64,000 bases of DNA from Lineus longissimus (taxonomy: Eukaryota > Nemertea > Pilidiophora > Heteronemertea > Lineidae): assembly GCF_910592395.1 (NCBI RefSeq), contig NC_088313.1, positions 2,482,501 through 2,546,500 of the forward strand, read 5' to 3'. A program made the translations under genes and the position numbers. Below the pieces are notes generated by a model, which saw nothing but the letters and a program-made list of their open reading frames with translations, was not told the DNA's origin and ran no database searches. Positions 24,101 to 55,822 of this stretch are shown here, piece after piece (positions within the stretch are counted from its first letter, which is position 1; every line of letters starts with the position of its first letter).

Positions 24101-27100
24101 TACATGAAGCTCATCAAATAGCAATTGTTCTTTTTTATATAGCTGAAATATCACAATTACCAGACATTTAAAAGAAAAAACAAAACAATACTCAGCCAAC
24201 TGAGATATAGTAATCTTTTAACCAGTCCACTTGAATATTTTCTTTATAGTACTTGTCTTAATTTAACACTGACTTCAGTGAATAGTAATAACTTACTTGT
24301 GCATCATATAGACCCAGAGCCTGTTCATATTCCGCCTTTTCTATATGAAAGAGTCCCCAATGCCAATAGATGTGACTTGCAAACATTTCACCACGCTGGA
24401 AAGAGAGAAAGTAAGAGACAATAGAAACTGTTGTCCCATTCACGAAAAAATGACGTAAGTCCCAAGTACAGTAGAACCTCCCTTAGCGGACACCTCTCAA
24501 TTAAGGACAACCTCTCCATTAGGACACTAGTTTTGGTCCAAAATTGGTTGTTTCCATTCAACCTGACCTCTCTAATCAGGACACCTCTCTATTAAGGACA
24601 GCACTTGTCGGACCCGAGGGTGTCCCTAATAGAGAGGTTCTACTGTATCTTGAAATAATTACCTGTTCTTTGCCTGAATCAGACAGGGCGTTTGATGAAT
24701 GAGCCATTTAAAGCGAAATAGTGATTGGCCATATTATGCTTCTTATTTCTATGCATGAGGAAACGACTACAGATGTTACTCACAGTCCAGTTATCTTCAG
24801 TTGATCTCATTAATTCAATGCCTTCGTCAGTTCTACCTGTCATTTCCATCACATGAGCTAGTGTGTGGGTTGACCATGCATCATAGGGATTGATGTAAAG
24901 ACCCTGGAAGAAATACATTGGGAATAATTAAAATGGTTCCACAATTGATCCTTGGATAAATTGGTGCTTATCTAGCCGACAACTGTCCCATTACAGTCCG
25001 TGATCAATTGTATGGACTACATCTGCTGTGGATGAAATCATGGAAACTCGTGATTAAGTTTTAAGTATAGGGCATTTACTAACCTTCTTTGCCAAGGCTT
25101 CTGCTTCTGTGAAATAGTTCGTTTCCTCCAGACCTAATGAATGCATACCGAGAAGATATCTGAAAAACATAGATTTTATATCATGGTACATGTATTGGAT
25201 GCTCACAATAAACTATTCATGTTTTAGACTTGACAAGGAGAGGGTGTGGCCTAGTGGTTTGGACCCTTGGTTGGAGGTCTACAGGTTCAAACCCTACCAT
25301 TGGTGTGAGACTCTAGGCATGTTTCTCTGTCTCTGCCTTACTCCACCCAGGTGTATAAATGGGCACTCATAAGAACTGCTCAGGTTGGAGCACTGTCTGA
25401 GCTGTGCGTCTGTCTACTGCAAAGTTTCAGGAATGACTGGGGTTGAAATGTGAACTCTGATGAAAACCTCAACCACAGCTCATATCAGACTAAATCAAAA
25501 GCTTCAACTTTTTAAACTGTGGCATTATCAACTCACCCATATAAAGGAATGGATTCGTTCCATAATGGTAAAACTCTACCAACCGAATCTCTCATAGCTG
25601 TATGCTCCCCATGGAAGAAGTAGTTGCCATGACTGAACATGATAGCCAAGACATCATGGGGATGGTCCAGGAGAATGTCTTCCCAAATGTTGTTGGCCTG
25701 GGTCTCATTGCTGAAGGAGAATGCCAAACTCTTAGATAATAAGATAGGAAATCCTCGCCATGCCCTTTGAATGTCATGTAGGCCTATTGCAAACCCGGAA
25801 ATATTTGTGTGTTTTTTGTCTTTGCATTCTTGGCATCGGCAAATAGAGGTATTCTGTGATCCACAATGTGACACTCACTTTGAAGAGTTCCATCATTGCT
25901 CACAAGATGGAGACACAGAAGTGCATTCCAATATGCTCAAGTCATTGTGACTGTCTTATCCATCTGGTGCATTGGGTACAAAAGGAGAAGCAGGAGGGAA
26001 CTAAAGTCACTGAGAGAGTAATCAAAGAACAGACTGGCAACAATAGGCTACCCAATCTTTGTGGATTTCTGCTGTCTTCTCATAAATTGGATAAAGATAT
26101 TACACTATTGACAGCCATAGAGGCTGACAATTAAGGTAAGATTTACTACAACTTTTTTACTTATACTGAAATTGCATCTTTCCTTCCAAGGGTAAGGCTG
26201 ATATTTCAGAGGAAAGATTTTCATTTTTCCACACATTTTAAATCTGTCTTTATTAAAGTATTTGTACTACAGGTCACTGCTCTGGATCTAAAGCCATCAC
26301 TTCAAACTCCTGACAAAACTGCTCTCTTTCTGACCATGAAGCTGACATAAATAAATGTCAGTTGCATGTTCAGACAGGTCTTACCCCTTAGCCCAAACCT
26401 TTACTGCCTCTGCATGCTGCATCTCTCTGTCTGTCAAGTTATTTTTCTTTGCCAATTCCAGTAATGCTTGAACATCTTCTTTTAATTTAGGGTCACAATG
26501 ATATGCTTGTCCACCACCAGACAGTTCTAGGCCTAGGCGCATAACATGTCCCATGACTGCAAAAGGAAGTCATGCGATGAGTTAATGAGAAAACATTGTT
26601 CTGGAATAAATATTTCTGTGAAACGACTTGACAATTCACTTCCATTTCCCAAAAACCGGTCATTAGCCTCGGTTTGAGACACGAAATAAAGGGCATTCCT
26701 CATTAGAGCAAAAAATCGGCAGTGAATTATTAAGTCAGGCTGTTTTTGTTTCTGTCAACCACTCATGATGAGCTGAATGAGAAAAACAATGCTCCTAATA
26801 GCTTGTGTGCACATTGCTAGAGAGCGACACTCAATATGCTAATATTACCAAAGGTTGGATCGGCTTCTATCATCTTCTTTATGGAGTTATCAAGACCTCC
26901 AACACTATCATCATGGAAAAGAGCAGTAACCTGAAACAAATGAATTGTGAGTGTAATGTTTTCTATAGTGATCAACTCAGTGTATTTACAAAAAATCACT
27001 AAGGCCGATCTAGCTATAATTCCGGGGCTGTTCAAAGTGTGTGTGGGGGGGGGGGGGATCTTGGTGTGACACCTCTCTATTAAGGACACTAGTTTTGGTC

Positions 27101-28148
27101 CCAAATTGGTTGTTGCCATTAATTTTAACCTCTCTAATCAGGAGACCTCTCTATTAAGGACAGCACTTGTCAGTCCCGGGGGTGTCCTTTATAGAGAGGT
27201 TCTACTGTATTTTCAATTGAGTACGTTGCAAAAACAATGTATGTCTTAACATACTCATAACTTTTATTGAATTATGTAGGTCAAACAAGATATTTTGTGA
27301 GGCTTTGGATTGATATTTCTTAATTTGCCGTACCTGTGTGAGACATGCATCATACATCTTGGCTGCTTCATTGCTGGTGGTTGACAGAGGGAGCCCAGCA
27401 TCAACCCATGCCTGAAATAAAATATCAATTTGGTTTAAATTAAAATGTCATCGTCTGAAATAAAGGAAATACCACGCCTATTCCTTCAGGGCTGAAATAG
27501 GAGGCTGTCCCGACCTTGTACCTGTTAAAAGAATTAACATTAGTTTTATTTTCATAGTATCCCTGTGTTGCCAATATTGCCATATCACCCATGTTCAGAT
27601 ATAATCACCATGTCCTCTTACATCATCCATATATCTCAATGACTCAATTTCAAGAGGATATAATAATACTGGTACAAAGTGAATATGATCAATAATATAG
27701 GCCCTTTGCCAGATACGCTCTATGGTTTGTTAATTTGTTTGCCCGACCCTAGGTACTCGCGTATCTGGCAAAGGGCCTATCGAGATTGAAGTTCCGACTC
27801 TGTTGGTCGTCGGACTCCTTTTTGTCCCTGTGATACACGGCATCAGTGCCACCGGTACTTCATAGTAATCTCTTACAGGTCACGCAGGGACTGCTACAAG
27901 GACTAGGTCTTGTCGAATGAACCATCGACATGTATTGGCTGAGACAAACTTCTTTGAAGTATTTTTTTCTTTTATCGTCTTAAGTTTTAAGACTGGACGA
28001 GGTCGGTCATCAACTTCATCATATATTTTTACTCTCAATATCAAAATGAACACAGCTCAAACCATTTCAACTCTTCCATACTTTTCACTCAATACTAATA
28101 TTTACTACGTACTTTACAATCTCTCCAATTATGATGTGGAATGCTCAT
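21167..28148 (-). CDS. TTC38: Tetratricopeptide repeat protein 38, copy B (13 exons, 468 aa)
   Basis: Exons in transcript order: 28113-28148, 27334-27411, 26849-26930, 26385-26556, 25537-25710, 25084-25159, 24784-24903, 24297-24395, 23863-23941, 23067-23235, 22525-22681, 21741-21814, 21167-21257. Every exon has exactly the length and phase of its copy A counterpart, so the gene is intact and predicts 468 residues. The start is MSIPHHNWRDCK joined to AWVDAGLPLSTTSNEAAKMY. Other matches are ADPTFVMGHVMRLGLEL, DHPHDVLAIMFSH, NPYDAWSTHTLAHV, SHIYWHWGLFHIEKAEYEQA and the C-terminus GRLMGKYLAAHGQ. Divergence from copy A is patchy: exon 2 differs at about one nucleotide, while exon 3 matches at about half its residues. 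Its 5' end faces the ENTPD-type gene, so the two are divergently transcribed. Confidence 0.95.
21482..21670. repeat. Likely dispersed repeat (CTTAGTCCTCTTTGTGCC)
   Basis: The stretch TTACTTACTTAGTCCTCTTT, followed by GTGCC-ACAGG-GGCACAG (a small hairpin), looks like a dispersed interspersed repeat, not unique intron sequence. It is intronic in TTC38 copy B. The family assignment is not certain. Confidence 0.35.
21897..22340. repeat. 30/31-bp intronic minisatellite, ~14 copies
   Basis: The unit CTTCAAACAGAGTACCTGTA + CTTGGTTGARTC is repeated about 14 times, with the linker alternating among GAATC, GAGTC and AAGTC. It lies in the intron between exons 11 and 12 of TTC38 copy B. A separate 26-bp duplication (CTGTGGCGGTCAATAACTGA) follows at 22383-22434. 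Confidence 0.95.
24469..24645. mobile_element. MITE of the CAGTAGAACCTC family, copy 2 (complete)
   Basis: It has terminal inverted repeats CAGTAGAACCTC...GAGGTTCTACTG and a TA on each side (24467-24468, 24646-24647), as expected for a TA target duplication. It is about 177 bp, non-coding and intronic in TTC38 copy B. The TIR and TA duplication fit a Tc1/mariner-superfamily (pogo/Tigger-like) MITE. Confidence 0.88.
25238..25480 (+). mobile_element. tRNA-derived SINE
   Basis: The A box (TGGCCTAGTGG) and B box (GGTTCAAACCC) have tRNA-like spacing. The body continues with GGCATGTTTCTCTGTCTCTG and CCACCCAGGTGTATAAATGG, typical of tRNA-SINE bodies in invertebrate genomes. It is located in an intron of TTC38 copy B. 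Confidence 0.8.
27066..27207. mobile_element. MITE of the CAGTAGAACCTC family, copy 3 (5'-truncated)
   Basis: It shares ACCTCTCTATTAAGGACACT, TTTTGGTCCCAAATTGGTTG and the right terminus GAGGTTCTACTGTA with the complete copy at 24469, but the left terminus is missing. A poly-G tract (about 27044-27057) precedes it. Confidence 0.8.
27697..27780. repeat. Perfect 22-bp inverted repeat with 40-nt spacer
   Basis: Arms ATAGGCCCTTTGCCAGATAC+GC (27697-27718) and its exact reverse complement (27759-27780) flank a 40-nt centre. It lies in the first intron of TTC38 copy B. It could be a tiny inverted-repeat transposon or a foldback transcript; no target duplication is obvious. Confidence 0.85.
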
Positions 28149-29078: not shown

Positions 29079-32000
29079 ATGATCAGTAATATGGTTCAAT
29101 GACAAGCAGAGCAAGAGAGGGTGTGCCAATTTTTGTTATGGAGGTGACGGTTCAGAGTCTGTTGGAGAATGAGGCACAGGGTCGGGTCAAGATATCCTGT
29201 GATCCTGGCGACACCATTGACAGCCTGATATCGGCCTTCTGTATTGAGAAGGGGGTACGCCAAAAGAAAGATTATGTCTTGAGGAACATTAACAATGACA
29301 TGCTTCACAATACTCGTAGAATAGAAACATGTGGCATTAATGATGGAGATACACTTTACTTGGGAACTACAGGTGAGGAAGATGTTCTTCTCTCTCTTCA
29401 TCCAAATCAAATTTTTAGATGATATTTTTACAAATTATCAGGTGAGTGTCAAGGTGACATGACACATTTTAACAAAATCAATGATGATTGTCAGAACGAA
29501 ACAATTTTTCAATCAAATTTCATTTTGAAATTTATCGTTTATATCTCAGTGTGTCAATGTCTGACATAATTGATAAAGTCATTGTTGTATTGAATTCGAT
29601 TTCTGTGTGTGTGGGACACTGCAGGGATCGCCCATATTGTACCAGGCCTATTGAGGAATACACTGTTTCTTACAGGAATATTTGATGCATCAGCATCAGG
29701 GCTATCACTCTTCCAAATTATTTGTTCATGGAAGTTGACTTATCAGGGCATACAAGTATCTGAGCTAAGGAAGGATGGTGGACCAAAAAATTAAAAGTAT
29801 TTGCCAGTTGTTATGGAACATGTACATGAAGTTAAATTTTAGGGTTGTTATAAAAAGTACATGAATATTGCTCTTTATTTGGCCTATTCTGCACTTGATG
29901 TTTAGAATTTCATAAGGATTTTAATCCTCTTTCCTTCCAGCCCCAAGTGAATCCACATTTGGTTTCAACAATTTCTGGCTGTTAGCAGGGGTCAGCCTTC
30001 TGATTGGGACCATTGGAATTGTTGCCATATCGGTCATCAAAGTCACCGGAGATGCCATCCTACAAGAGGTAATTACTGGTTTTGCATATCTACCTTCCTC
30101 TTTTCTGAGGTATTTTTTGACAATTTGTGACCCGTCAGAGCAAAACCAGGCGCATGTCGCTCTGAGCTTGGCAGGTTGAGACGGACTGTTCGTTCATTTC
30201 TCTATTGTCTGCCTTTTGTGAAGCACATGAGCACATCAATTTCTCCCATTATCTTCTGGTGTCATTTAGGCTCATCTTCTGTGCGACATGCGCCTGGTTT
30301 TGGTGTGACGAGTCACATTTGCCCAAAATGGTTGACTCCCAGCTATGCTGCCTTCTGTCACCTGGAGTATTTTCATGCCTTGGCCTTCTTCCCGTGTAGT
30401 AATGTATAATCCTCTTCCGGGAGTATTTAAAACTTAAAGTCAAATAGTGGAAATAGTGAAATCTAATTTTCCTGACGCCAAACCATCTTATGAATGAACT
30501 TCGGAGCTCCTAAAGTAATCAAGATCTTTTAAAACCCTCTATAATATTGATTGAGTTCTCTCGAATTACATTCAACACTCAGGTTTCAATCAGTTCTCTC
30601 AGTTCCCCTCAAAATTGAGGATGTGGCTGATAAAAGTAAACAATGTCTTCTTTGTTTTAGATCCTATTCCTTGAAATAAGTTTGAGAGTGAAACTTTTAG
30701 TAGACAGAGCCAGAGGAAAGTCAATTAATTCTTACTCAAAGATGTTTCTTTGGACTAGTTCTCAAATTCCTTACTAGAATTTCTTTGGCTAGAAGTCCTT
30801 TCATGTCTCCTTGCTAACTGTTTCTGTCTGTGTGTTTCTGACATTCATGTTCGAGAAAAGTGCCAATGATACAAATTTGTATTTCTCAAACTCCGCGTAT
30901 GATTTGCTCATCTTGGTCAAACCCATCCATGACAATAAGGTCACCTAAGTAGGAATCGAACCAATCACCGTGTAAAAGAAAATTGTTTGTGTGGCCTAAT
31001 TGATCACACTTCATGAGAACGTATGTAATGGTACTCAGAATTCTTGTATAACAGGAAAGTTCATTGTAGCCCAAAAAATTCAAGGACGAAGGTTATCAAA
31101 CTTGGTAGATTATAGTACATGTAGTAGAAGAGCTTAGATTTTTTTACATGCGGTTTATTGAATATCAGGGCCTTGTTATGCGTTATGCACTGTTTGCCAA
31201 GCTGAACAATCCCAAAAAAGTTTTCAAAGACTGTACAGAAATTTAAATCGTTGAGTATGATGTACTATAAGGCACTGCACCCTGTTCATTTTATTTGAAG
31301 ATTTTGTCTGAAACACAGCGCAGAAATCAATAGATACATCATGTACCAGTATGTAGATAGCACAACAGCTACCGCCAGTGCTATTGAACCAACTTGTGTT
31401 GTTTGTTGTGCTCTTGTAATCTAATAGAATAAGGACTGTCATTTGGTTCATCAGTTCAAGCAATTCTCTCGGTCACATTGAACTACCACTCTCTGCATCT
31501 CGGCATACAGAGAACATCGCTGTCTATTTTTTCCCAACCCCCAATAATTACTTGAGTCCTTGAGGACATGATCAGATGTCCTTGAAGAGATGTGTTCATG
31601 ATAGATTTATCAAAGTCTGTCTTCTTCTGAGTCATGTCAGTGATGATAGCTCCGCGCAACCCTGGGCATGAGACCGATGTATTTATGTTAGAGAAAGAGC
31701 ATGGCAGTGGTGAACCTTGGCATATTGATTTTGCAGCCGAAATATGTGCTCAGACCAAACAATGCCCCAAATTCCTCAACTATATGACAAAATCTTATTC
31801 CTCCCTTCAAGTACATTGAATGGGGAAGCCAAAATGGGTTTACGAATCATCTATCTGATTCAGGCATAGGCGGAAATTTGCCTACTGTGCCATGACAACA
31901 ATCTTGAGTGGAGTGCAGTAGTATTAACCCATTACTTGTGATGTGTGGTGGGGAATAGTCTATGGCATTGGCATTGGCTTGTAATGGGATTCCTGACGAC

Positions 32001-35000
32001 CATTCAGACTTGAAGGGGAGGGGTTGGTTGTGACATGTGGGAGGTTCTGCTCTACTTCAATAATGCTATGTAATTTGAAAATGGTTGAGACAAAAAACTT
32101 ATTCTAATCAAAATTTATTGTGCCCGTGGCAACATGTCATAATGGGACAGACAAGGATCCTACTAAGTGTGGTTCTCCAGTCCCCTTGGAAAACCTTGCT
32201 GGTATGTATTGATCACACCACTTTGCTCTAGTTGGTGTGTTCAAACACAGTAGCTAACATAAAAACCTTTAGGAGGCTTAAGGAACTGATGAGTGAGAGA
32301 TGCTTCTAAAACTTCCAGCGAAAAGGTTCATCAGGAATGCATGTCTGCTGTATGTTACACCACTTCAGGGATGGCTCAAATCCTCTCTGATGCTTATACA
32401 ATGAAATATTGGGTGATATGAATAAAGACTAGCAAATGCTTTTACTTCAATTTTGTACAGAAAGGCCCAGTGTAAATGTACATGGAGTTTTAGATAAAAG
32501 CATTTGCTAGTCTTTATTCATATCACCCATTGATAATGTCCTTCATGCACAGCATTCCTGTTGCTCATTTTGTGTATTTATTGACATAATTGCTGTTACC
32601 TCGTAACTATGAACGAGTGGTGGGACAGTTGAGTTTTAATTGTGATAATTTGAGATAATTTCCTGGTGGAAATAACCTTATTTCCTGTGAAATAAATATC
32701 CATAATGGGGACAATTTTGGCTGTCGAACTTGCAGTCATGAAACACTTATTCTCACTAACTTGATTCTACTCTAGTTTGAAGGAAACTAAAACTGACTTG
32801 CTCATCTCTAAAACCGTTTTAGTCAGTTCACTAAATTAGCAGTTCTACTATATGTGGCTTACTGAAGGACAGTGCACAAGCTAGTGTACATTGTACAACT
32901 TGGGCAGGTATGAATGATAAAACAGATGTAAATGAATTAGCTGCATATATTGTCAATACGTTGCTAGGGTAACCCCCTCTAACAACTGTTATCGATGATT
33001 AATTATTGAATAATAAGTACTTATTTGCCATTGATTGTCTCAGCTTGTGTGACGAGAATGGGGTTATGAATCATCCAGGTGGATGCAAGGTTTGCAAAAC
33101 TATCCATGCACACATTCCCCAGTCAGTCCGGGGGACATTTGCTCTGCCAGTACTGACTTCCATTACACCACGAGCTTTGAGGTCCCAGCCATGTCACAGG
33201 CGTGTGATGAATTCAAAATCAACAGATCAATTTAGCGATTCATCAGTCCCACCAATACCTACATGACTTATAGAAAACTGACATAAAACCTGTGCATGAA
33301 TGTTGTTGAATACATGTATGTGTTGATGTTTTAAAGTTGTTAGAGGCTGAAAAATGATTATCTCAACCAACAAGTTCAAAATCCACACTGTACAGGCGAG
33401 AATTTTAGAAATTTTAGAAGGGGCCTTGTGATCTCGGAATCTCGTGTGTCAATATAAAAATTTACGTGAATTTATCTCAACCAACAAGTTCAAAATCCAC
33501 ACTGTACAGGCGAGATTTTTAGAAATTTTAGAAGGGGCCTTGTGATCTCGGAATCTCGTGTGTCAAGATGAAAATTTACGTGAATTGTATCTTGTCTTTT
33601 CAGTATGGCATTGTCATCGATTGTGGATCGACTCACACTGAAATATTCGTCTACTCATGGCCTGGCACCAAACTGAATGGGACTGGCGTCATCAAACAGG
33701 TCTCCTCATGCAGGAGAGAAAGTGAGTATTCTGTAAGACGCTGCAGTTCAAAATTGATGGTGAAAATGACTCAGTTAGAACTCATGGTCACCAGGAGCGC
33801 CAGTGATCTTTTTGATTCTGAGGGGTTGGTTTCGACCTATTTTTATCTTGTGAGGGTACCGTCCACTATATTTATGATTTTTATGGAGGAATCCTGAAAA
33901 GCACAAGAATGATTTCAAAGCAAGCATTCTTGAAGATTGGTGAAAGCAGCAATAAAGATTGCTCATGGTCATGTCATGGATACAAAAATTAGGAACAGGA
34001 GGAGGTGTATGTGAGAAGGCGCTTTCTGAAATGCTGTTAAGTAAGCTTAATAAAAAGAAAGAAAAATAACAGAAACCTTGTGGGTCTTCGTAAACGACTT
34101 AAGTGCTCACTTAAACTCTGACAATGGGGGGATTAAGTGATGTCGAAGTCAGGAGTCCAATGACTTTTCAGTCAAGAGGCAAATGCATCTTCACTGCATG
34201 ACTGTGCTACCAGTGTCAATGCTGAGGTATTGGTGCTGATGCTTGTTTGAACTTACACGCTAGAGTGTCACTAACTATTCGTTGATTTTCCTCAATTTCA
34301 GTTCCTTTAGCATCATTTGAGACACATCCAAAAGATGCAGGGCCATCTTTGGTGGACTGCATCCACCAAGCTGCTGTCAGTCATATTCCCCAGAACAGTC
34401 ATCACGAGACAAGAATTTATCTTGGAGCTACTGCTGGCATGAGGATGCTCTAGTAAGTATGCAAGATTGGAGCCATTTACATGCTTCTCCCCTTCCACCA
34501 GTGTTGTTTTCATGCTTCAACCAAGTGTCGCAACCTGAGTTCTTTGCAGTATGTCTCGATGAGAAAGCATCTGTGCAAAGTAGATTAATTGACATGCTCC
34601 TATCCTTGCCACAAGAGTAATTCACAGGTCCTGTCCTGAGTCTTTGTGGTCAGTGTTATTTTATGCACATTCCCATCACTCTTGTAGGCTGTGAAGGAGT
34701 TCATCTTGGTATTGGCCAGTTATCTTATATTTCATCTAAGATATACCGGTACCTTTGGCTCACGGAGGAAACTTATGCTGTTTTATCTTGTATCTAAATA
34801 TTGAAGCAATGTACATTATTCCAACAAATTTGGGGCAGGGAGTCTGCTGAGAGACCAAACCATTTCGTATTTTTGGGCTCACATACTTTTTCTGCGCTCA
34901 CTTATTGTAGGACTCTTTGTTTTTTCCAGTGAGAAGGATTCCAAAGCCAGCGATGCAATTATGCAATCTGTCCGTAAGACTCTCAAAGAATTCCCATTCA

Positions 35001-38000
35001 AATTTAGCGACCCTGCAGATCAAGCCAGAATCATCTCTGGTCGAGAGGAGGGGTCATTTTCTTGGGTGACCTCAAACTATCTGTCTGGAATTTTTGCAGT
35101 AAGTAGATAAGTAGATAAACAACAAGTGCAGTAGGACTGCACTTTTTGCAGACAAATGCGATTTCCCATGACCCACTTTGTCCCAAAACCAGTGTCATTC
35201 AAGAGAGGGCTGGGTGTACCACTGCCGTTACGTGCGATCAATTTTGAAACAAAAGTATGTATTTGGCACATCCACTATCATGTTGATCTGTTTTCAATGT
35301 ATTAATGGCACATGTATGCCACACTACACTGCCTGTGCAATTCCTGGTATTTTACTGCGAAAATGAAACTGATTGAATGAATCACTTCCTGCGAGTTTTC
35401 AATTTGTATGTGGAAGTCATGATTTCAAAATCAAATGCGCGTATCTAATAATCTGACTCTTTTAGGTGTCCGATTCTGGTAAAGTTGTTCCACGTGCGGA
35501 TGCAGACACGCCATCAAGAACTTTTGGTGCTCTAGATTTAGGCGGTGCGTCAACTCAGATAACCTACCAGCCCGCCCCATCTCTCATGGCAGACATTCCA
35601 GCAGAGTATGTCGAGCCATTGTTATTGTATGGAGAGATGTACGAGACCTTTGCCGACACTTTCCTTTGTTTTGGAAAAACAGAAGTTGAGAGGAGATTGC
35701 TTGCAAACTTGGTGAATGCTGATGTAAGTTGACCTGTTGAAGAGATTTAAGCTGTTCATAAACCGTCAATCATCTGGTTGTGAGAGGCTGGACTTGGGTA
35801 GCTGTGAAATTTGTATCAATGAAAATTTACAATGGGGTCAATTTGAAAAATAGTCAGTAGGATGGACACATGTATGTCTGCACAAAGTGCTGAATCATCA
35901 GTAATGTCCTATTTGATTTGAAAGTATACCTTGCCAAAGAAGGTAATGCTCAAATCATTTTTGGGTAATGTCACCTTGGTAGATTAAATGGAAGATGATT
36001 ACAAATATAGCTGTCTGTTTTCTTTTTTCAGGCAGAAGCAGCCAACAACAGTACGGTGACAAACCCCTGTGCACCGAGGGGAAGCCTGGTTGAAAAAGCC
36101 TATGGCTACGTATTCGAGGCTCCTTGCACTGTGGGCAAACAGGCAAGACTGAGCGGCACTGAGGTCATTCCACACAAGGATATCCCTAAGGTACTTTGAA
36201 TCAATTTGAATCATGTGTGAAAGCGTTGACCTTTTTATAAGCTAGAAACCTACATCATAAGGTTTAGAACTTTACTGATGTATGCAAGGTGAAGTGATAC
36301 TGATGTATTCAAGGTGAAGTGATACTGATGTATTCAAGGTGAAGTGATACTGATGTATTCAAGGTTAAGTGACAGACACATCAACTGGCTGTTTCAAGGA
36401 TATCGATTTGAGAAGATGAACATGGAAACATGGTCGACTGTTAGCCTGTCCTTGACTGACTTGATCTACACACTTGTCCAAGGTGACATAATAGCATGAT
36501 CTTTGATGACAGTGAACAGATCATTTGAGCAGGCTTTTTAAGTGGCATCAATCTTGAAGTACAGCTTTTGATTGTCTTTCATCCCAAAGAGCATACCCTA
36601 TTGCATCAACTATCTTAAATCGTAGCAGTTACAAGTCAATTGTCTTTACAGTACAAGTGCCTTTACACTTCAAGTTTATTTTGTGGTTTACAGCAAGTTG
36701 GTTGATTTTTAAACTACAGTGGAACCTCCCTTTGCAGTCACCTCTCAATAAAGGACAATCCCTCTATTAAGGACACTAAGTTCGGTCCCAATTTGGTCAT
36801 TTCCACTCAATTTGACCTCTCTAATCAGGACACTCTCTATTAAGGACAGCACTTGTCAGTCCCAAGGGTGTCCTAAATAGAGAGGTTCCACTTTATCAAA
36901 CTGTTTTCAGAATTCAACATTCCGGTTCCGTGGTACTGGCAATTCCTCACAGTGTCAACTAGATGTAGACAAATTGTTCAACTTCACCAACTGTCCTTAT
37001 GAAGGTCATTGTTCATTCCAAGGTCACTACATTCCAGATGTCTATGGAAAATATTTGGTAAGTTACTTGATGTTACAAAAATTCCGTGTTAGTCGGCTTT
37101 GTATTGGGCTTGCCGGGACGTGTGAGTCCATCACAGGATATTACACGATTTAAATTCTGGTTCAAGCCGATGTTTTCACCAGAAATTGGTTGCCTTTTGT
37201 ATAAAAATACCCCAGTGAAAAATTTGGTATCGGACAAAGACTTGGGAACCTGGCCAAAACACCAAGTTGTCACTCAACTGTAGTGGCAGGCAACACACAT
37301 TATGCATGAAGAGACGGGTTTTGTGTTGCTGCTGGTGCAAGGGGTAAGACCATTGTAACTGAAGTGGTGTCGGATCTGTAAAATTACTGTTGGAGTGTCC
37401 TCACGTCATGACGTCCTCACCACGTTGGTGAGACAACCCTAGTCCCTTATGACAACACCTGTTATGATATTTACGGACTTGTATTCTCAAGAGTGAATAC
37501 AGAAGGAGAAGTAAGATTTGTCCTGAAGGACTCCCTGACAACTCCGAGATACGTAGATTGGAGAAAATGAACCTGGAAACATGGTCGACTGTCAGCCTGT
37601 CCTTGACTGACTTGGATGTACACGCTTGTCCAAGGTGACATAATAGCATGTCCTTACGGGATCTTCAGTAGTTATCTGTCTTCCTAGCGAAGGTCCAGCT
37701 CTAATGAGTCTCTTGTTCTTTTCATTCCCTTTGCAGGCATTCACTGGTTTCTTCCATGTGATGGACTTTCTCAACCTAACAGCTGCCCGTAATCCTGGGG
37801 TTGTCACACTGAAGAAATTCACCTCGGTGGTGGATGGTCTCTGTGCTAAGGATTGGAAGGAGGTATGGGCCTAGTCGAACTCAGTCTGCTAAGTTATGCC
37901 ATATGTTGAATAGCTGATATCATGCCCAATCTCAATGATAAATTAACTTTGTAATGATGCTCTCCTGGCTGTTAAATAAAGTTAAGGTTTGACATGTTTG

Positions 38001-39464
38001 GAGAGGGATAACTTCACAGAAGTTTCTCCAATATGTGTCGTAATTTCTTTCAGATGTGAATAGTATGTTTTTGCAGTAGGCCTCTTTTGCATCTATCTGA
38101 GTAAAACTTCATCACTTGTATTTGGCTGTTTTCACAGAAGTTTTGATATGATGACAGGACCCTTTCTTCTGAAACTCTTTAGTGCTGTATTAGGGCTGTG
38201 AGCATTGATTTCAGAAGTTTGAGGCAGAAGAGCAGGATTCCTCTCCAGAGTAGGCCACACCATCTAATATTTCTTACAAACTGAATTCTGTCTCGATTCT
38301 TTGTAATGGTTGTTTTGTTTTCTAGGTGAAGACCATGCGCTCCCCAGTGACAGATCTGCTACCCTTCTACTGTTTCGATGGACACTATGTCCTCACTCTG
38401 CTGACCAAAGGCTATGGCTTCAATGAAACAAATTGGAAAAGCATAGAGTTTGTAGATAAGGTAAATGACACTGTTACTCTTAATTACTCATTCTAAAATG
38501 GAACTGGCTATTCGAACCGCCACGGTGCATTGGGCCATTGTTTCCGGTCTTATTCGCACCGTCAGAAACACCGTTACGGTGAAAGGTACCGTACCGTGAT
38601 GGTGCGAATAATACGGAGTGAATAAATAGATCGCACCGTGGTGACATGGGTGATGGTGGGTAAGGAAAGTAGGCCTAATTCATGATTGAGGTGGTGTTTG
38701 TTTGTGACGTGTGTTGGAAATGCCTTTACTCCTGGCTCCGGGTGTGGGTAGGGTCCTTGACTTCCAGCCAGGCCAGCCGGCCCTGTCACGGTACGAATAG
38801 CCACGGCCTTCTAAAATACCTGGATTTAGAACGACACTGACTTGTTAGTCTTTTCCAAGCTCACCAGATGGCAGAGCTGGTGTTGGTTACATGTTTCAGT
38901 CCTGCAACATGTTCTATTATCAACATCTGCAAATTAAACAAGGAGGTTCAAGGCAGCAGACAAGTCAACCATCTTGGGTTAAATCGTGGTCAGTCATGGG
39001 AGTAGAGATTCATTCATATAAGTGGGTGTGTGAAATAAGAGAAAAAGATTTACACACACTGCAGCTGTGAAACTTTTTCTGATGTGACTTGATAAGTGCT
39101 TGAGTTGGTTTGGATGACAAACTCTTGTTTGAGAGAAGTATCGGATCCCAAAGGCCTATTAGGAAGTATGCATCATAGCAAAGGTTCTTTCAAAGGAGAC
39201 TGTCTGAGAGTATTAACTTTTTTGCCATCTTGCTTCCAGATTCAAGACACCACAGTCGGTTGGCCAGTGGGCTACATGCTGAACGTGACCAACTCAATCC
39301 CAATTGCGGAACCACTTGAGAAGATCAGCTTCCCTGTCTTCATCGGCTTGATGTGTGTCTTCATATTCTTTATCTTTGTTGCCATCGGATTTGCGTGCCA
39401 CGCAAAAAGCTCGCGAGAATCCAAAAGCGAGTATCAGAAACTTCCAGAGTATGGTACCGTTTAA
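29079..39464 (+). CDS. ENTPD: CD39-type ectonucleoside triphosphate diphosphohydrolase with N-terminal ubiquitin-like domain (11 coding exons, 629 aa)
   Basis: Coding exons: 29099-29372, 29941-30068, 33604-33721, 34302-34452, 34930-35098, 35466-35723, 36032-36190, 36911-37057, 37737-37862, 38326-38460, 39240-39464; phases match at every join. Order: ubiquitin-like fold (~12-91), transmembrane helix (~103-124), ectodomain, second transmembrane helix (~586-607), short cytosolic tail ending PEYGTV. All five apyrase conserved regions are present: ACR1 DCGSTHTEIFVYSWPG (~140), ACR2 YLGATAGMRML (~213), ACR3 IISGREEGSFSWVTSNYL (~258, with the catalytic-base Glu of EEG), ACR4 FGALDLGGASTQ (~300), ACR5 TTVGWPVGYMLN (~559). 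The family hydrolyses extracellular ATP/ADP; two transmembrane segments place it with cell-surface NTPDase1/2/3/8. The ubiquitin-like exon is not expected in this family. The ATG at 29099 is chosen because earlier ATGs run into a stop. Confidence 0.93.
30126..30317. mobile_element. MITE with 35-bp terminal inverted repeats (TGTGAC...GTCACA)
   Basis: The left end TGTGACCCGTCAGAGCAAAA CCAGGCGCATGTCGC and the reverse complement of the right end agree at about 32 of 35 positions. The element is about 192 bp, non-coding, in the second intron of the ENTPD-type gene. The superfamily is not determined. Confidence 0.85.
30880..31030 (-). repeat. Possible tRNA-derived SINE fragment
   Basis: The minus strand carries a B-box-like GGTTCGATTCC, with GTGATCAATTAGGCCAC upstream as a degenerate A-box region. 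It is intronic in the ENTPD-type gene and has degraded too far to assign a family. Confidence 0.35.
32411..32528. mobile_element. MITE GGGTGATATG family, copy 1 (34-bp perfect TIRs)
   Basis: A 118-bp element starts GGGTGATATGAATAAAGACT and ends with the exact reverse complement; the arms match perfectly over 34 bp. Flanks are ATT on both sides (a 3-bp target duplication). The perfect arms suggest a young copy. A diverged relative lies at 45468-45585. The 3-bp A/T duplication would fit PIF/Harbinger-type elements, but no transposase is present to confirm this. Confidence 0.9.
33358..33585. repeat. 114-bp tandem duplication just upstream of an ENTPD exon
   Basis: Two nearly identical copies contain CTCAACCAACAAGTTCAAAA and TGTGATCTCGGAATCTCGTG. 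They end within 20 bp of the acceptor of the exon starting at 33604, so the duplicated block forms the 3' part of that intron. Confidence 0.92.
36277..36372. repeat. 25-bp tandem repeat, ~4 copies
   Basis: The unit GATGTATTCAAGGTGAAGTG+ATACT is repeated almost four times in an intron of the ENTPD-type gene. Confidence 0.92.
36405..36502. repeat. Dispersed ~97-bp repeat, copy 1 of a pair
   Basis: Shares ACATGGTCGACTGTTAGCCT and GTCCAAGGTGACATAATAGC with 37556-37652 in another intron of the same gene, with a few substitutions. The sharp limits suggest an interspersed repeat or local copying event. Confidence 0.8.
36717..36893. mobile_element. MITE of the CAGTAGAACCTC family, copy 4
   Basis: The termini are CAGTGGAACCTC and GAGAGGTTCCACTTTA, with the same core (TCTATTAAGGACACTAAG, CAATTTGACCTCTCTAATCA) as the copies in TTC38 introns. 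It is more diverged than the copy at 24469. It lies in an ENTPD intron about 18 bp before an exon. Confidence 0.85.
37556..37652. repeat. Dispersed ~97-bp repeat, copy 2 of a pair
   Basis: This is the second copy of the sequence described at 36405, starting GATTGGAGAAAATGAACCTG and ending GACATAATAGCATG. Confidence 0.8.
38500..38808. mobile_element. Inverted-repeat element with 9-bp target duplication
   Basis: Ends TGGCTATTCGAACCG and CGGTACGAATAGCCA are inverted repeats. The identical flanks TTCTAAAAT (38491-38499 and 38809-38817) form a 9-bp target duplication. It is about 309 bp, non-coding, in the last intron of the ENTPD-type gene, and contains internal GCACCG/CGGTGC palindromes. A 9-bp duplication is typical of Mutator-like elements; 8 bp would suggest hAT. 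Confidence 0.8.
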
Positions 39465-42700: not shown

Positions 42701-45258
42701 ATGTCGGTAGGTAAAATTAAGTCGCATATCTTTGTATGTAATTATTTTTGTGGTTCTTTCTATTTTGCTATGCACTTGAAGGTATTTTCCTTCCTCAAGG
42801 TGGGGATGAGTGTTTTTGCATGCCACTAGGGTTTAGCACCATTTGGTATTATTGTGCTAGCAATTCCATCTTTAGCCAGGACCGTATACTTGAATGGGGG
42901 TCTTTTTCTTGCTCAGGCATTGGCATAATCTACAAGAAGCTTTGGTTTGATGTCTCAGGCGAATGACAAAGCAAAGTGTCTTGTTCAAGGACACAAAGAC
43001 GGACAAAAAACAGTGGTAGTCTTTCAAAGGATCAAACCCATGACTCCCTGATAATGAGCCGCAACGGTGGCACTCAACCAATCTTTCACTGACCTCCCTA
43101 ATTAGTCTGATTTAATCCCAAGCAAACTGAATCTGCTGTTGGTTGTGACAGCGTCTCACATTTGGTAAAGAACTTTAAAAGCTGCAATGAGGTTATGACT
43201 TTTTATAAATGAGTCTTGTTTCCAGTTCCCAATTATCTTTTAATAACATCTTTAAGGCTCTAATGTTGACGTGCTCTTGAAAAATAGATATTGTCCCTTT
43301 AGGTGTTCTGAGGTTGATGTTTATCTCAAAGTTTTCAAAAGGCACACCTGTTTTATTTCACATAAAGTACATAATGATTAATATGTTTTCATTCAAGCTT
43401 GGTATTTGAATGATCTGTGTCAGTGAACTAACTATTCTTATTCAGTGATATATCATACTGAAAAGTAGCTTACAAAACAAACCTTTATGACCTAAAACAT
43501 TTGTCAATATGTAGTTGGTTTTACTCACTGAGACTTCACTGCATATCGTCTTTTATGACTGTTAAACCAGAGAAGAGAATATTCGAAGATCCATCTCTGG
43601 GAGTATGTGAAAACACAAGGGCAGAGTCATATGACTGACATCCATAACCAGCTCTGAAAGTGTGCATGGCAAGTTAATATGATCTTGTTGATAACCAGCT
43701 CTGGGAGTGTGAAACCGAAACAGGTGATTTTGTTGATAACCAGCTCTTGGAGTGTGAGAAACCAGTGAGTCTGCAGTCGGAACCAGATTTGTCTTATCAC
43801 TGGTGCACCCTCATCCTATTCAGAGACCTACCAGTACGGTATATTCCACAAACTGATTACTCCATATCTTTCATTTTTCCAGCATCACATTAGCAAGAAA
43901 CAATTGCACAGTAAGTTAAAGTTTCCAGCCTCTGTTTGATCCGGCATTGTTGGGGTGGATACAAACAGGTTGTGACAGTGTTTTCGAAACGGGTGAGACA
44001 TTGAGTGACTAACACAGCACCAATAGTCAGCAATGTGGATGTCCACTTTAAATCTGTTTGCTTTCTAACTCAATATAACAATTGAAAGCATTGAGCGATT
44101 TTCTATCCTGTTGGACCACTGAGGTTTAAGGGGGGGGGGGGTGATGTGAGATCTTTGCTCAAGCTTTTGTATGACTGGTGCCTTGCTTTTACATCCTCCT
44201 TTAGAATGGAAGACGGCATTTAACCTCTACGACAAAGATGGTGATGGTACTATCAGCGTGCGTGAGCTGGGTTCACTCATGAAGGAGTTAGGGCAGCCCA
44301 AGAAAGAAAAGGAGCTGAATGCTATGATCAAGAATGTTGATAAGGACAGTGAGTATTCGGTGGGAAAGTGAGTTTAGTCCCAGAGAATTAGTCCATATTA
44401 AGGACCATGTAATGGCTATAGAGACCAAATGTGGAGTCTAATATCTATTTTACATTGGCTAAGGTAGGTTATTTGGGGATCTAGGTCTCCAGGAAGAAAT
44501 CTTAAGACCGGAAGGGGGGTCTTGCTAAAAATTGGTGGCTGTACCCATCATTGAATGCAATATCATGTAAGGGAGGGAAGAATTTGAATAAGATGAACCT
44601 TTAGAACACTTTCCCGATATCTGTAGATTCAAATGCCAATTGTCTCTGGCATGGTCTCTTTGCAATTTGAAATCATGTCCTAGTGAGACCAAATTGGCTG
44701 GTCCGGATGCATCAGATCATTCTGATCTCATATTTAAGGGAATGGTAGCCTTGACTTTGGTGAATTTTGTGAGCTGATGCGTGAAAAGGAGGAAGAAGAC
44801 AGAGGTGGACCACTGTACAAAGCATTTAAGGTGGGTTTAGCGCCGATGGGAGGGTGTGATTCTATTTGAACATTCAGTTTAGAGTTGAGCATAAACTAGA
44901 TGTACATTTTAGCTCAATTAATAGTATCGGGTGTTTCGTAATGTAAATTAGGATAAAACTTGAGACCCCGAGGATGCCTGCCAAAAAAGAGATTTTTATT
45001 GGGAAAACAAAAGGAATTTCATAATCCCCATGAATAAAAATTGATATTATGTCGGTCGTAATCTAAACTTCTATTTTCTGTTGACAGAAAGCGGATAGAG
45101 ATGGCAGTGGCACCATCAGCGCCAAGGAGCTGAAGAGGATGATGCGCGATATGGGACAAGATCTTGATGATGAAGACATTGATGAAATGATACGGCAGGC
45201 AGATATGGATGGTGATGGGGAGATCAGCTATGCGGAATTCAAGGCTATGATGGGATAA
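42701..45258 (+). CDS. Calmodulin-like four-EF-hand protein (5 coding exons, 146 aa)
   Basis: Exons: 42701-42706, 43883-43910, 44205-44348, 44739-44830, 45088-45258. Phases 0, 1, 2, 0 match. The conceptual start MSHHISKKQLHKWKTAFNLY parallels the N-terminal helix of calmodulin. The four 12-residue EF loops are DKDGDGTISVRE, DKDRNGSLDFGE, DRDGSGTISAKE and DMDGDGEISYAE; all keep the acidic first and last ligands and a central Gly, so all four should bind calcium. It ends EFKAMMG. The length is close to calmodulin (149 aa), but the sequence differs widely, so it is a paralogue, not the canonical calmodulin. The last two exons and their EF hands are certain; the 6-nt and 28-nt 5' exons are inferred from splice motifs and phase. 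Confidence 0.88.
42965..43090 (-). mobile_element. tRNA-derived SINE (minus orientation)
   Basis: The minus strand reads GTTGAGTGCCACCGTTGCGG ... CATGGGTTTGATCC (B-box region), then GTGTCCTTGAACAAGACACT. This is a recognisable tRNA-SINE arrangement. It lies in the first intron of the calmodulin-like gene. Confidence 0.65.
43640..43765. repeat. Short tandem motif GATAACCAGCTCTGGGAGTG
   Basis: Three spaced copies (CATAACCAGCTCTGAAAGTG, GATAACCAGCTCTGGGAGTG, GATAACCAGCTCTTGGAGTG) about 50 bp apart lie in intron 1 of the calmodulin-like gene. They are related to motifs at 11375 and 11484. Confidence 0.6.
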
Positions 45259-48310: not shown

Positions 48311-50776
48311 TCACAGTGACGCCACATCAGAAACATTGTTCTCAGAGAGACTAGCAACTTCAGCAATGGCAGGGACAGCTTCAGTGTTTGGTGTTACAGT
48401 ATTACTAGTTGGATCTTCTTCTACTACAGGCATGACTGGGGAAGCAACATCAGAAACGTTTACAGGATGCGCGTAATAGCCATATGGTGGTGCTTGTTGA
48501 TCCATGTAATAATGTCCGCTGTTGTCCAGAGGATGTTGGAGTTCCGGTCCCTGGACTGGTTGGGAATGCGCAGCGTAATATTGTCCATGCTCCTGGTTGC
48601 TCCATGGTTCTGGGTATTGGTAGTAGCAGTAGGGGTCATACGGATGAGGCGCATAGTACTGTCCATAAGCGGGAGGAGCATGAGTAGGTGGTGGTGGGGG
48701 ATAGAAGGCTTCTGCTTCAGGAGAATCATTCCAGTATTTCATTGGGATATTACAGCTACCCTTGGGGATATCGGACCACTGACCATGATGTGAGGATGAG
48801 ATGTTGTCTGCGTAACCACTGCTACAGTTTGGAGTCAGGGATACAAGGGGACCTCCAGGGATATCACACAGTGCAGCAGCTTTTTCGATCAGTTTACCAG
48901 GGGTTCCTGATGTTCTCGGTCGCTTGAGGTACGGTCTTGAAACAGGGTACGGCCCAGCTTGCTGGTAGTCTGGGCATGGTACATCAGAAACGCCAGCCTC
49001 CTGGATGTGAAGTGAGAGGCTTTTCAATTCTTCTGGCGGTTCACACTCACTGCGGCCGCGTTTACGTTTGGTGACGACATAGGGGAGAAGTTCTGCATGC
49101 CCTCGAATGAAGTAAGGGTGGCAGAAAACCAAGCTTCTTGTTGAAACTTGCGGTTCGTCATCTTTGCGATTTTGGTGCCATGTGAAACTATAGGCACGCA
49201 GCTGACGTCTCAGGTTATTGAATGTTGGCAACTGAAAGCAGAAAATATGACTTTTTAGAACCCAATAGCATTCCTTATACCAGCATAATTGGTAAAAACA
49301 AAGCTATTTGATGAAAGTGCTTCAGGATTCAGATACCTGAAATCAATAATCATTGAAGACAGCTTTATTGCTGCAATATTGAGACAGAATGACTAGAATA
49401 CTTGATGTCTTGAACAATTTGGGACCATGCCTAGGATATGAATGATCTATCATAATATAGCAATTTTGCTCGTTTGCTACTGCACTCACTGCAGTGCTAG
49501 TAATTGTCTTACTAGTACCGTACTTCTTTATCAGTCTGGGTTCAATTTTCCCACTTGTCCACACCTTGGACAGCCAAATTATCAGACAGATAAGTTAGTT
49601 TTAAGTGGTTGTCCTGCAGATAAGTAAGTAGAAATGCTTCAGTTATAAAACCCAAGTTTTGAAGTGGCGTCTCTGATCATTATACAGCAGGAACAACTGC
49701 TGTCATCTCCAAGCCTTTCAGTTCACACAACTAACAGAGTTCTCCACAGGGTTTCGATCAAGGGGGGTGGTATCCTTATTAGAAGTTTTGCCAGTGTGCA
49801 CCACCAGGAAGGGTGACCAGCAATTAAAGGTAGGGTGGCCCTATAGAAACCCTTTACAAAATTTAGACCAAGGTGGGGTGGGTGCTTCCAACTTGTCAAG
49901 GTAGGGTGGTAAGCTGCCAAAGTAGGGTGATGGGCCCACCTGACTAATGGCCTTGTGGAGAACGCTGAACTAAACCTACAGCCAAGCTTTTCCGTCTGCA
50001 ACTTGTAAGTGTATTGTAACCATGCACCTCCATTAGTTTACAATGTAGCAGGACAGACACTCCCTCCATTAACTGGTCAAATTCCATTCCATGTGTCCCA
50101 CATCAGGACACCAATCATCCCAATCAATGTTAGGGATTTGGAATTGGAGGGTAGGCCCCATCATTCAGCAATGGCATGTCTTTGGCTATATGAAATGAAT
50201 GATTCATTCAGTCACAGCTGACAGTGCAATTTGACACATTTTAGAACTAAAAGTCTGAAAGTACTGATGATGAGTGTGGGTTGGCAGCCCTGCCGAAGAC
50301 ACTACCAACCAATGTCATCCATTTCATTCTGAAAATGAGAAATGAATGAGCACAGCCAACATAATTCATAAAAGCAAACCCACGTAGGGCCTATGGCTAT
50401 GCACACCATCATGGATTGCATGCAGACGCACCTGGACAAAACCTGGATAAAGTTCCATCACTTCACCTTCAAACAGACAATCATTGACGCAGATTCCGGT
50501 ACCAGACTCCACCCATTTAATCATGTCATTACTCGGGTCATTGGTAATGTCCCAGAGCCTTTGGGGCCATAGCTGAACGGGCTTGGAAAGAGGAGACAGT
50601 GCATCCTCCATCATCATAGTACTACTGCATGTACTGGCACTGGTACTGGCACTTCCAACGGGGCATGCATTTTCGTCAACTGCTTCATTTGATTGTCGAT
50701 GAATATCGTCTTCAGCCTTGAAATCTAAACTTCTTCTGGATCTAGAACGATTCTTCTTCTCCATGTGATATGTCAT
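48311..50776 (-). CDS. Heat-shock-factor-type DNA-binding domain protein, HSF5/HSFY-like (2 exons, 421 aa)
   Basis: Exons 50432-50776 and 48311-49231 join in phase 0. The start is taken at 50776 (MTYHMEKKNRSRSRR) because the frame upstream has no ATG. The HSF domain is split by the intron: LWPQRLWDITNDPSNDMIKW ... CLFEGEVMELYPGFVQ (residues ~67-115), then LPTFNNLRRQLRAYSFTWHQ ... VFCHPYFIRGHAELLPYVV (~116-170), followed by the basic KRKRGR. NNLRRQLRAYSF aligns with the recognition helix SFVRQLNxYGF of canonical HSFs but is divergent. The C-terminal half is rich in Pro, Tyr and His (YPPPPPTHAPPAYGQYYAPH) and ends with repeats of NVSDVAS. No HR-A/B coiled coil is evident, as in HSF5 and HSFY. 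Probable nuclear DNA-binding protein; targets unknown. Confidence 0.85.
49735..49945. repeat. Short AAGGTAGGGTGG-type repeats in the HSF-gene intron
   Basis: Several variants of AAGG(T)AGGGTGG occur (AAGGTAGGGTGGCCC, AAGGTGGGGTGGGTG, AAGGTAGGGTGGTAAG, AAAGTAGGGTGATGGG). They are G-rich on the plus strand. No transposon ends were found. Confidence 0.5.
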
Positions 50777-50888
50777 TTTCGTCGTGAAATGTTCATAAAA
50801 CGGGTAAAATAGGTAAATATCAGATTTAGAAAGATCACAGGAGCCGCGCACTGCTCGAAACAGACGTGCGACGCAACTCGTGACGACG

Positions 50889-50941
50889 CTACGTCATCGT
50901 TGTCATGGTGTCGCGTTCAACTCTGATACTTTGTGACGTCA
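50889..50941. promoter_or_regulatory. CRE-type sites upstream of the HSF-domain gene
   Basis: A full palindromic cAMP-response element, TGACGTCA, lies at 50934-50941 and a TACGTCA half-site at about 50890-50896. They are about 115-165 bp upstream of the initiator ATG at 50776, the expected place for a proximal promoter. More TGACG/CGTCA half-sites cluster at 51080-51145. Confidence 0.5.
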
Positions 50942-51396: not shown

Positions 51397-51421
51397 TTTA
51401 TTTCAATGATTTTCATTTATT
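51397..51421 (-). terminator. Candidate poly(A) signals for the cytokine-like gene
   Basis: Two minus-strand AATAAA motifs (plus-strand TTTATT at 51397-51402 and 51416-51421) lie about 1.15 kb downstream of the stop codon of the four-exon secreted protein. If used, the 3' UTR would include the ATTTA cluster at 51662-51681. Confidence 0.35.
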
Positions 51422-51661: not shown

Positions 51662-51681
51662 AAAAATAAATAAATAAATAC
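51662..51681 (-). promoter_or_regulatory. AU-rich element candidate
   Basis: Read on the minus strand the sequence is TATTTATTTATTTATTTTT, three overlapping ATTTA pentamers, about 0.9 kb after the stop codon of the cytokine-like gene. Such clusters destabilise many cytokine mRNAs. It could also be a plain AAAT microsatellite. Confidence 0.35.
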
Positions 51682-52562: not shown

Positions 52563-55500
52563 TCAGAGAAGTGCTGTCTTGTATCCTTCCATAGCTTGCT
52601 GGAGAAACCATTTTGCCTCCTCCAACAAACTTTTAAAGCTACTCAAGATTATGTAATTGTCAATTTCCCGCCTATACGAGTTGTGAGGCACGTGATATGC
52701 TGGGTGACTTTCAATCTCTGCTCGGAGATCTGCTGGAAGACTTCGGGGCGCGAATGTACACATTAGTCGTCTGGACGTGGTAATGATTTTATCGTTAGCT
52801 ATCGCTAAGGCCTGTAAGTCGTCACTGGAGCACTCCGCGTTTCGTTTCGCGTGGTGAAGGTAGATCGTATGGCACATTAATGCTCTAGTCCATTTTACGT
52901 GCACTCTTTCTATCTGAAACCGAGAAAAGAATAAACGACGTGACGTCAGCACGATGTAATTTCATCTGACGTTAGGGGATTCGCCATCTTTATGATATCC
53001 CTTTTCATGGTATAATTTATACCGAAAGGTGACAAATCTTGTGATGGCCTCATTGACTTCATAATAGTCTTTTTGTTATACAATGTATACATAATTTGAT
53101 GATTATTATCATAACGTGAAAGAAGAAAAATTTGAGAAATGTGTGGTCGCTCTTGATGTATATGGATAACGACATTTCTATTCAATAGTCAGTCAGAATC
53201 GACCCTTATCTTCATCAAAATTCATTAATGTGCGTATTGCCATTACCATATAGAGAAATTTGCCTGTAAACTTCACTTTTCTCGAACATAATACGAAAAA
53301 CTTCAATCTGAAAAATGTCCCTACCTCATCTCTGTTGTAGACGATCTGCTCTGGGTTTATTGCGCTCAGATGTTGCTTTAAGTCTGAAACCTCCGTCGTA
53401 CAGGGCAGGAACATCTCACTTCGGCTCAATACATCAAACATGAACTCCCACTTCTCTTTGCTTTGTGAAGACTGAAAAAAATATCGGTTTTTAGATATGG
53501 CAGAAATTTGCAAGTCCAAGAATTGCATGTTTACACATTGTTTTCTGATCAGCAGAACCATCTAGCCCTGTGGCGTTTGTTGCCGTTTTCTTGTATGTAG
53601 CATAATGAGCAAATTTCGGAAGATTTATGATGGCCTTGTTTCTTCAATTCCACGATATCAACGCATTTCGAGCATCACTTTGCATTCGATCGGCTCAGTG
53701 TAGGATTTTTCAAACATTAGGTTATTCTGTCCCTTCCTCGCTGTAAACATACTTTAGGTCTAGCCAAGTATTGACCGTTTGTATCTAGGCCAAGATTCCC
53801 ATTGTTCTACTGTCTTATCGAAGGGTTATCCGGGAAAATCTTGATAACATCGACCCCCGCGAAACAGCTTTGATAGGGGTCGATATAGGCCTAAACCGAA
53901 CGTAATGGAAATGGTTTCTTAACTCCTAAGGTCTCTGGTGTCCATGTGCCTAAGATGCACCACCCATTTGTTTTCTTCGTTTAATAAATACCTACCAGTG
54001 ATGCCATAATTCTGCTAATGTTGTCTATGGACACCGTTATTTGACCGGGAAGGCGGGCGTAGTATTTTCGAATGGCACTGCTGTGTTGTGGATGATGGCA
54101 TTCCGGTGCGAATATATCAAAATCATCTGGCATTTCTTGTCGTGCCGTGCTACACACTGGTACGGAGTTCGAACCGGGTAGAATGAATGATAAGATCATG
54201 ACGACAGCAGTCGTGTGGATGGTATTATCTGGAAAAACAATCGAGGGCATATGGTCATTGATAAATTAAAAGAAAACGTGAATACAAATTGTCATGTGAT
54301 TCTGCTAAAAGTTTGGTATTGTTATACACCTTTCCAGAAATGGGGCGCTGAGTGTCCGAAATAGTGATGTCATAAGGGGAAACTAGGCCTTATGGTGGAG
54401 GGACAAAGGAGATAGTCATGGTTGACCAACACACTTGAATGCCTTTAATGACGGACAAGGGGGAAAAAGTTAGTTCCAATGCAAGCCACCAATTTCGGGA
54501 AGCATGTATATACCCCATCGAAAATGCGATTTTTAGTCAAACCGATTATTGACCAGTCATCTTCACCTGTATAGTGGGGTTCGATAGAGTGAGTGTAATA
54601 TTAACTGCCATCATAATTTCTTTCACATCAACGTTCAAACATTTTGTTTTGATGAGATAAAGTAACTTTGATTCAAATCTCCCTTGAAAGAACTTTTGAG
54701 CAGAATCGTTTTGGGATATATTTCTGGTTGGATGCTCAGGTGTACGACAGTGAATAAGGTGGTCAAGGTACCTCAGGCCTGTCCAAATATCAGTCATGTG
54801 ACGAGTGGACCTAAAGTATCAATGCAATAAACCCCACATGCCATGAACGGATGTGTGCTTGCCAAAGGAAACGGCAAACTCCCCCGCGACAATATCTGTC
54901 GAAATTTGTTCAGTTATAAATGTACTCTCATGTACTCTCATCGACTCTCGTGTACCTGATGACTGTTTACATAGAAAAAAACTAATAGGACCGATTCAAT
55001 AAAGGGGAATGCCGTTCGTAATTACAGGTGGTCCAGGAAAATAGAAATGCAGTTATACACAATGCCGTGGTGCAATTCTTTCCATACGGATTTGCTGAAA
55101 CTTGGTATTCATAGTATGTGTATAACTGTCTACACAACGGCAATGCTGACATTTATATTTTGTACGTCACGTCAATTACAAATTTCAAATCTTTAACGAA
55201 CGGCGTAGGTCTTTAATACCTCACCAGACGTGACGTCAATTATTGCAAAATGTGACTCGGAACAGGAAACTGCCAACGAAATCAACATTAACGTATTTGC
55301 CCTTAACTCTTTCGCCGCAATATATTGCAGACAGCAGACGGCGTTTTTCCCCCCAAGAAGTCAGACTGGTACTTACCTGATGAAGATGGAGTAGATAACG
55401 ATGAAAATAAGATCAAAAGGTAATTGACGGCACCAAAAGGTAATTGGGAGAGGATATACTATTTCTTATGTTATTTCATATAGGCCGACCCCAATTTGAA

Positions 55501-55622
55501 GAAAACACCGGACCACGTGAAGTCTGCACGTAGGAAATAACGAACCCCCTCCAAATAAAAAAATCCTAAACACCGAGACCCCCAAATATAACAATAATAA
55601 ACTTACCGGCAGAAAATTTCAT
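52563..55622 (-). CDS. Candidate secreted class I helical cytokine, IL-6-family-like (4 exons, 248 aa)
   Basis: Exons: 55607-55622 (16 nt), 53996-54228, 53325-53471, 52563-52913; GT/AG borders with phases 1, 0, 0. The signal peptide spans residues 1-27 (MKFSADNTIHTTAVVMILSF + ILPGSNS), with likely cleavage before VPVC. The mature protein has six cysteines (31, 49, 107, 146, 160, 184). Helix-prone segments: ~55-100, ~133-158 (ERVHVKWTRALMCHTIYLHH), ~162-186 (DDLQALAIANDKIITTSRRL) and ~212-246. The last contains IDNYIILSSFKSLLEEAKWF, which resembles helix D of IL-6 (HLILRSFKEFLQSS). The tiny first exon with a phase-1 intron is typical of LIF, IL-6, GH and EPO genes. A TATA-like box (55815-55822) precedes it. 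The inferred role is an extracellular ligand for a JAK/STAT-type receptor. Coding status is good; the family assignment rests on structure and one motif. Confidence 0.72.
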
Positions 55623-55814: not shown

Positions 55815-55822
55815 TTTATATA
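55815..55822 (-). promoter_or_regulatory. TATA-like box of the cytokine-like gene
   Basis: The minus strand reads CTTATATAAATCGC here, about 195 bp upstream of the ATG at 55622. Transcription starting ~30 bp downstream would give a 5' UTR of roughly 165 nt without an obvious upstream ATG near the start codon. Confidence 0.45.

Follow-up and report, generated by a model that had tools for sequence, protein, structure and literature searches.

Exon structure and chance expectation

We analysed a 64,000-nucleotide stretch of the Lineus longissimus genome (contig NC_088313.1, positions 2,482,501 to 2,546,500; hereafter the window), whose minus strand carries at 52563..55622 a candidate gene for a secreted helical cytokine resembling IL-6. 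Three GT..AG introns of phases 1, 0 and 0 separate four exons, which together encode a product of 248 amino acids with cysteines at positions 31, 49, 107, 146, 160 and 184, all past the likely signal peptide. An earlier description made from the letters alone (hereafter the sequence-only reading) had proposed four in-phase exons, a 248-residue product and six cysteines in its mature part; this model was confirmed exactly, on the minus strand. Exon 1 (55607..55622) comprises 16 coding nucleotides, specifying MKFSA and the first base of codon 6, and ends in the phase-1 donor CCG/GTAAGT. Exon 2 (53996..54228, 233 nucleotides) encodes the remainder of the signal-peptide-like start, an N-terminal region with two cysteines and a putative helix A (residues ~66–83). 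Exon 3 (53325..53471, 147 nucleotides) encodes a putative A–B loop with one cysteine, and exon 4 (52563..52913, 351 nucleotides including the stop codon) the putative helices B (134–156), C (162–185) and D (213–247). The 'clear' signal peptide of the sequence-only reading stands as a hydrophobic, signal-like start (top 10-residue hydropathy mean, 3.07), as judged by hydropathy only.

Splice sites were scored with a simple model, the frequencies of which were set by hand and untrained. Among 7266 GTs, the three candidate donors fall within the top 0.17%, 1.1% and 0.87%, compared with 1.0–4.8% for the nine donors of a neighbouring ENTPD/CD39-type gene, for which the best site within 9 nucleotides of the exon end was taken. 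By score, two of the candidate donors exceed all nine ENTPD donors, and the remaining one exceeds eight of them. The acceptors rank at 0.8%, 21% and 0.25% among 7496 AGs; the second acceptor, that of exon 3, is weak in this model because ENTPD acceptors rank at 0.03–9.5%. Over 4 kb of the minus strand there are six strong donors, three of which the candidate gene uses. Within intron 1, at 55376 (minus strand), an acceptor immediately precedes the region's strongest donor (TCCATCTTCATCAG/GTAAGT), an arrangement resembling a recursive-splicing point.

A strict search for exon chains (donor score at least 4.5, acceptor score at least 2.48, four exons, at least 240 amino acids, span at most 3.1 kb), with thresholds derived post hoc from the candidate model itself, returned the candidate as the sole chain in the 52.6-kb non-array part of the window and none in 600 windows simulated with an order-2 Markov model. 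When the search was relaxed (thresholds 3.5 and 1.5, at least 200 amino acids, three to five exons), 25 of the 600 simulated windows contained at least one chain, and 2 contained a chain with a signal-like start. The real window then gave 31 chains; among the 25 listed, 2 came from the candidate locus and 23 from two other stretches. The GC content of exons 2–4 (0.456–0.464) is higher than that of all three introns (0.338–0.406), but the 5′ flank likewise has 0.456.

Resemblance to IL-6 and database relatives

The pairwise similarity between the candidate and human IL-6 (PF00489, IL6/G-CSF/MGF) is strong, with a near full-length alignment that includes 49 identities in 189 aligned columns. The two proteins share a signal-like start, a similar length and a resembling C-terminal helix; they differ in that the candidate is longer, has its six cysteines placed elsewhere and belongs to a protostome. 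The possibility that the likeness is confined to the hand-picked helix D was rejected.

The positions of introns were compared as well. Breaks in IL-6 at codons 6/7, 70 and 157 were read from isoforms whose sequence switches there; a further break we take to lie at codon 108, and the phases we presume to be 1, 0, 0 and 0. Both genes have a very short first coding exon, and candidate introns 2 and 3 lie near places equivalent to those in human IL-6. Intron 2 falls 1 residue from its IL-6 counterpart in the alignment, ranking 2nd (human sequence) and 3rd (profile) among 180 places. For intron 3 the corresponding ranks are 5th and 7th of 220; its best place is 9 residues off, and its real place is inside an alignment gap. 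Among 21690 anchor pairs, fractions of 0.0007 (human) and 0.0021 (profile) fit the IL-6 introns equally well. At odds with the IL-6 exon pattern, the intron after codon 157 is missing from the candidate, and one exon therefore carries the putative helices B, C and D together.

For structure prediction, exons 4 and 2, each contiguous in the DNA, were folded singly, giving low-confidence models. AlphaFold predicted for exon 4 alone helices at 134–156 and 162–185, a short one at 193–200 and one at 213–247 with a one-residue break (predicted local distance difference test score (pLDDT), 44.8). The structure comparison that the sequence-only reading had proposed, performed by Foldseek on this low-confidence exon-4 model alone, gave two matches at E ≤ 10 and none at E ≤ 0.001.

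Searches with the candidate protein returned no family at E ≤ 10 from Pfam, and hence none at the PF00489 cut-off (human IL-6, as a positive control, scored 275 bits), no family at E ≤ 10 from the prokaryote-oriented NCBIfam library, and no IL-6 or other meaningful match among PDB sequences. In a set of 5.8 billion proteins that includes animals (nr, UniRef, NCBI), considered at lengths of 0.55–1.75 times the query, none of 273 word-sharing candidates matched at E ≤ 10. The sequence-only reading had expected standard annotation to miss such a gene; no annotated protein for it came up in this length range, and a differently built annotation of the gene could therefore escape. The idea of a close paralogue arranged in tandem within the window was rejected, as tblastn found nothing better than E 0.5 beyond the candidate exons themselves. 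Titles and abstracts among the literature matches listed, with preprints outside the scope, reported no ligand of the IL-6 type in Nemertea or elsewhere among lophotrochozoans.

Flanking signals and neighbouring genes

Several signals around the candidate gene were noticed post hoc and serve as hints only. A TATA-box-like TATATAAA (55815..55822, minus strand) lies 200 nucleotides 5′ of the ATG, and two AATAAA polyadenylation-signal-like sites lie at 51421 and 51402 (51397..51421, minus strand), both features being consensus matches only. The presumed 3′ untranslated region contains an AU-rich element, UAUUUAUUUAUUUAUUU (51664..51680, minus strand), and no other TTATTTATT locus occurs in the window except within a (TAAA)n microsatellite. 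The 1.2 kb upstream of the gene contain no NF-kB sites, one AP-1 palindrome and two TTCN3GAA palindromes. Three of the five perfect cAMP response element palindromes (TGACGTCA) in the window are in or adjoining the candidate gene (52405, 52941 and 55231).

The neighbouring ENTPD/CD39-type gene occupies 29934–39464 (plus strand). Its joined exon pieces are 90% identical to a Lineus longissimus protein over the whole query, the next match being a Lingula protein (44%), and this Lineus protein matches the window exon by exon in tblastn, with mismatches at exon ends. The DNA of the window comes from Lineus longissimus or from an extremely close relative, a nemertean among the Lophotrochozoa. Just 5′ of its first exon lies a ubiquitin-like open reading frame (29090–29422, plus strand; Rad60-SLD, E 4e-4, under the curated cut-off), matched near the N-terminus by 37 of the 120 ENTPD relatives listed, including those of lophotrochozoans, lancelets and a tardigrade. 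As judged from these sequences, the ubiquitin-like/ecto-apyrase arrangement is a conserved fusion; a Lineus ENTPD isoform among the matches listed (545 amino acids) is without the ubiquitin-like part.

A gene at 48311–50893 (minus strand) encodes an HSF-type DNA-binding domain over two exons, each piece under the curated cut-off, and a Tyr/Pro-rich tail. Calmodulin-like EF-hand exons lie at 44150–45258 (plus strand), with the piece 45085–45258 matching EF-hand families. The splice-chain search also pointed to what are apparently two related genes or gene pieces at 14200–18750 and 22600–27350 (both minus strand), which match no Pfam family at E ≤ 0.01 and are presumably TTC38-like. A tandem array of ~930-bp units fills positions 1–11341, and Rfam gave no match at the gathering score across the window.

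Interpretation and comparison with known cytokines

The locus is very probably a real protein-coding gene. A chain assembled by chance from splice-like sites and open frames, perhaps in decayed sequence, seems quite improbable given the simulated windows (0/600 in the strict search, 2/600 with a signal-like start in the relaxed one), the strong donors and the higher GC content of exons than introns. Such a chain would fit the one weak acceptor, the lack of an annotated protein, although the database does include an annotated Lineus longissimus protein, and a codon usage that resembles non-coding frames. The candidate scores −0.07 bits per codon, against a mean of −0.10 for non-coding frames and a range of −0.09 to 0.26 for the training exons. 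Counted over synonymous choices only, it scores −0.065, against 0.004–0.083 for five genes or parts of genes in the window and a mean of −0.03 for non-coding frames. These statistics have little power here.

As to the product, we lean towards a functional Lineus longissimus gene for a secreted class I helical cytokine of the IL-6/G-CSF/IL-23 type. Of this reading, the analysis shows the gene structure, its improbability by chance, the host species, the IL-6-like alignment and the intron agreement. A number of results weigh against the assignment. The IL-6 profile hidden Markov model gives a marginal score (p ~0.004); the comparison by hhalign gives no signal; and the mammalian IL-6 rows are uneven, 15 of 70 scoring below shuffles. 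The IL-6 cysteine signature, C-x9-C-x6-G-L-x2-[FY]-x3-L, is unmatched in the candidate, the sole echo being ALMCHTIYL at 143, which resembles its second half. AlphaFold modelling of exon 2 alone yields a weak helix A of 9 residues (73–81; pLDDT 43.1). The four long helix-prone segments once described thus receive only partial support. Because the PF00489 profile and the cysteine signature are unmatched, we keep the candidate outside the IL-6 family. The hhalign, profile and orthologue scores, the weak helix A and the missing IL-6 cysteines would also suit a real gene of a secreted, helix-rich, nemertean-specific non-cytokine family, with a role, for example, in defence, mucus or reproduction. 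The likeness to IL-6 would then reflect a chance match in helical composition, and the arrangement of introns would be the one usual for secreted proteins, in whose genes a short signal-peptide exon is often followed by a phase-1 intron. We consider such a family rather unlikely, and a helical cytokine of another branch, whether class II (IL-10/interferon-like) or leptin/CNTF-like, highly improbable.

For the IL-6-type cytokine that we favour, we infer the following course. The protein would be made with a signal peptide and secreted, and would fold as a four-helix bundle with A from exon 2 and B, C and D from exon 4. It probably works like an IL-6-type cytokine, binding a gp130/Domeless-like receptor and thereby activating JAK/STAT signalling; its expression is probably inducible and its mRNA probably short-lived. 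That it is truly homologous to the vertebrate cytokines of the IL-6/G-CSF/IL-12 type, with ancestral intron positions kept in a lophotrochozoan, is a tentative and somewhat doubtful proposal.

A survey from 2026, covering 18 phyla or subphyla of metazoans, places IL-6 in vertebrates only, whereas IL6R-like receptors, JAK and STAT already occur together in molluscs, so that those receptors have no canonical ligand (PMC13203501); a ligand in Lineus would matter for this reason. As described there, the survey used BLAST at E ≤ 1e-5 and at least 30% identity, which a protein like the candidate would evade, and its main text does not contain 'Nemertea' (PMC13203501). A review describes helical cytokines in amphioxus, whereas acorn worms and sea squirts yielded none (PMC9010856). 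If the favoured reading is confirmed, a signalling molecule so far regarded as restricted to vertebrates would be present in an animal group very remote from them. A protostome ligand with intron positions like those of IL-6 would shift the origin of the ligand to early bilaterians and make its pairing with lophotrochozoan receptors open to direct testing. Were the candidate a true homologue, a gp130-type ligand would predate the protostome–deuterostome split, and the candidate would be the kind of ligand still missing for the IL6R-like receptors reported from lophotrochozoans.

Among known systems, LIF, OSM and CNTF are likewise secreted long-chain helical cytokines, from which the candidate differs in its scores (Z −0.24 for LIF, 0.92 for OSM and 2.6 for CNTF, the last in non-equivalent regions). 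LIF also has six mature cysteines, and the LIF, OSM and CNTF genes have fewer exons. The IL-6/LIF-type cytokine initially proposed is partly supported; a LIF-type reading was rejected on the LIF score. In strength, the resemblance of the candidate to IL-6 is about on a par with that of G-CSF and IL-23 p19. The oyster interferon-like protein CgIFNLP, likened by description only, is a lophotrochozoan protein described as helical-cytokine-like in structure but class II-like (PMC9756803). The insect Unpaired ligands and the amphioxus GH-like cytokine, compared by description in the same way, appear in the literature as invertebrate examples of class I receptor ligands (PMC13203501, PMC9010856).
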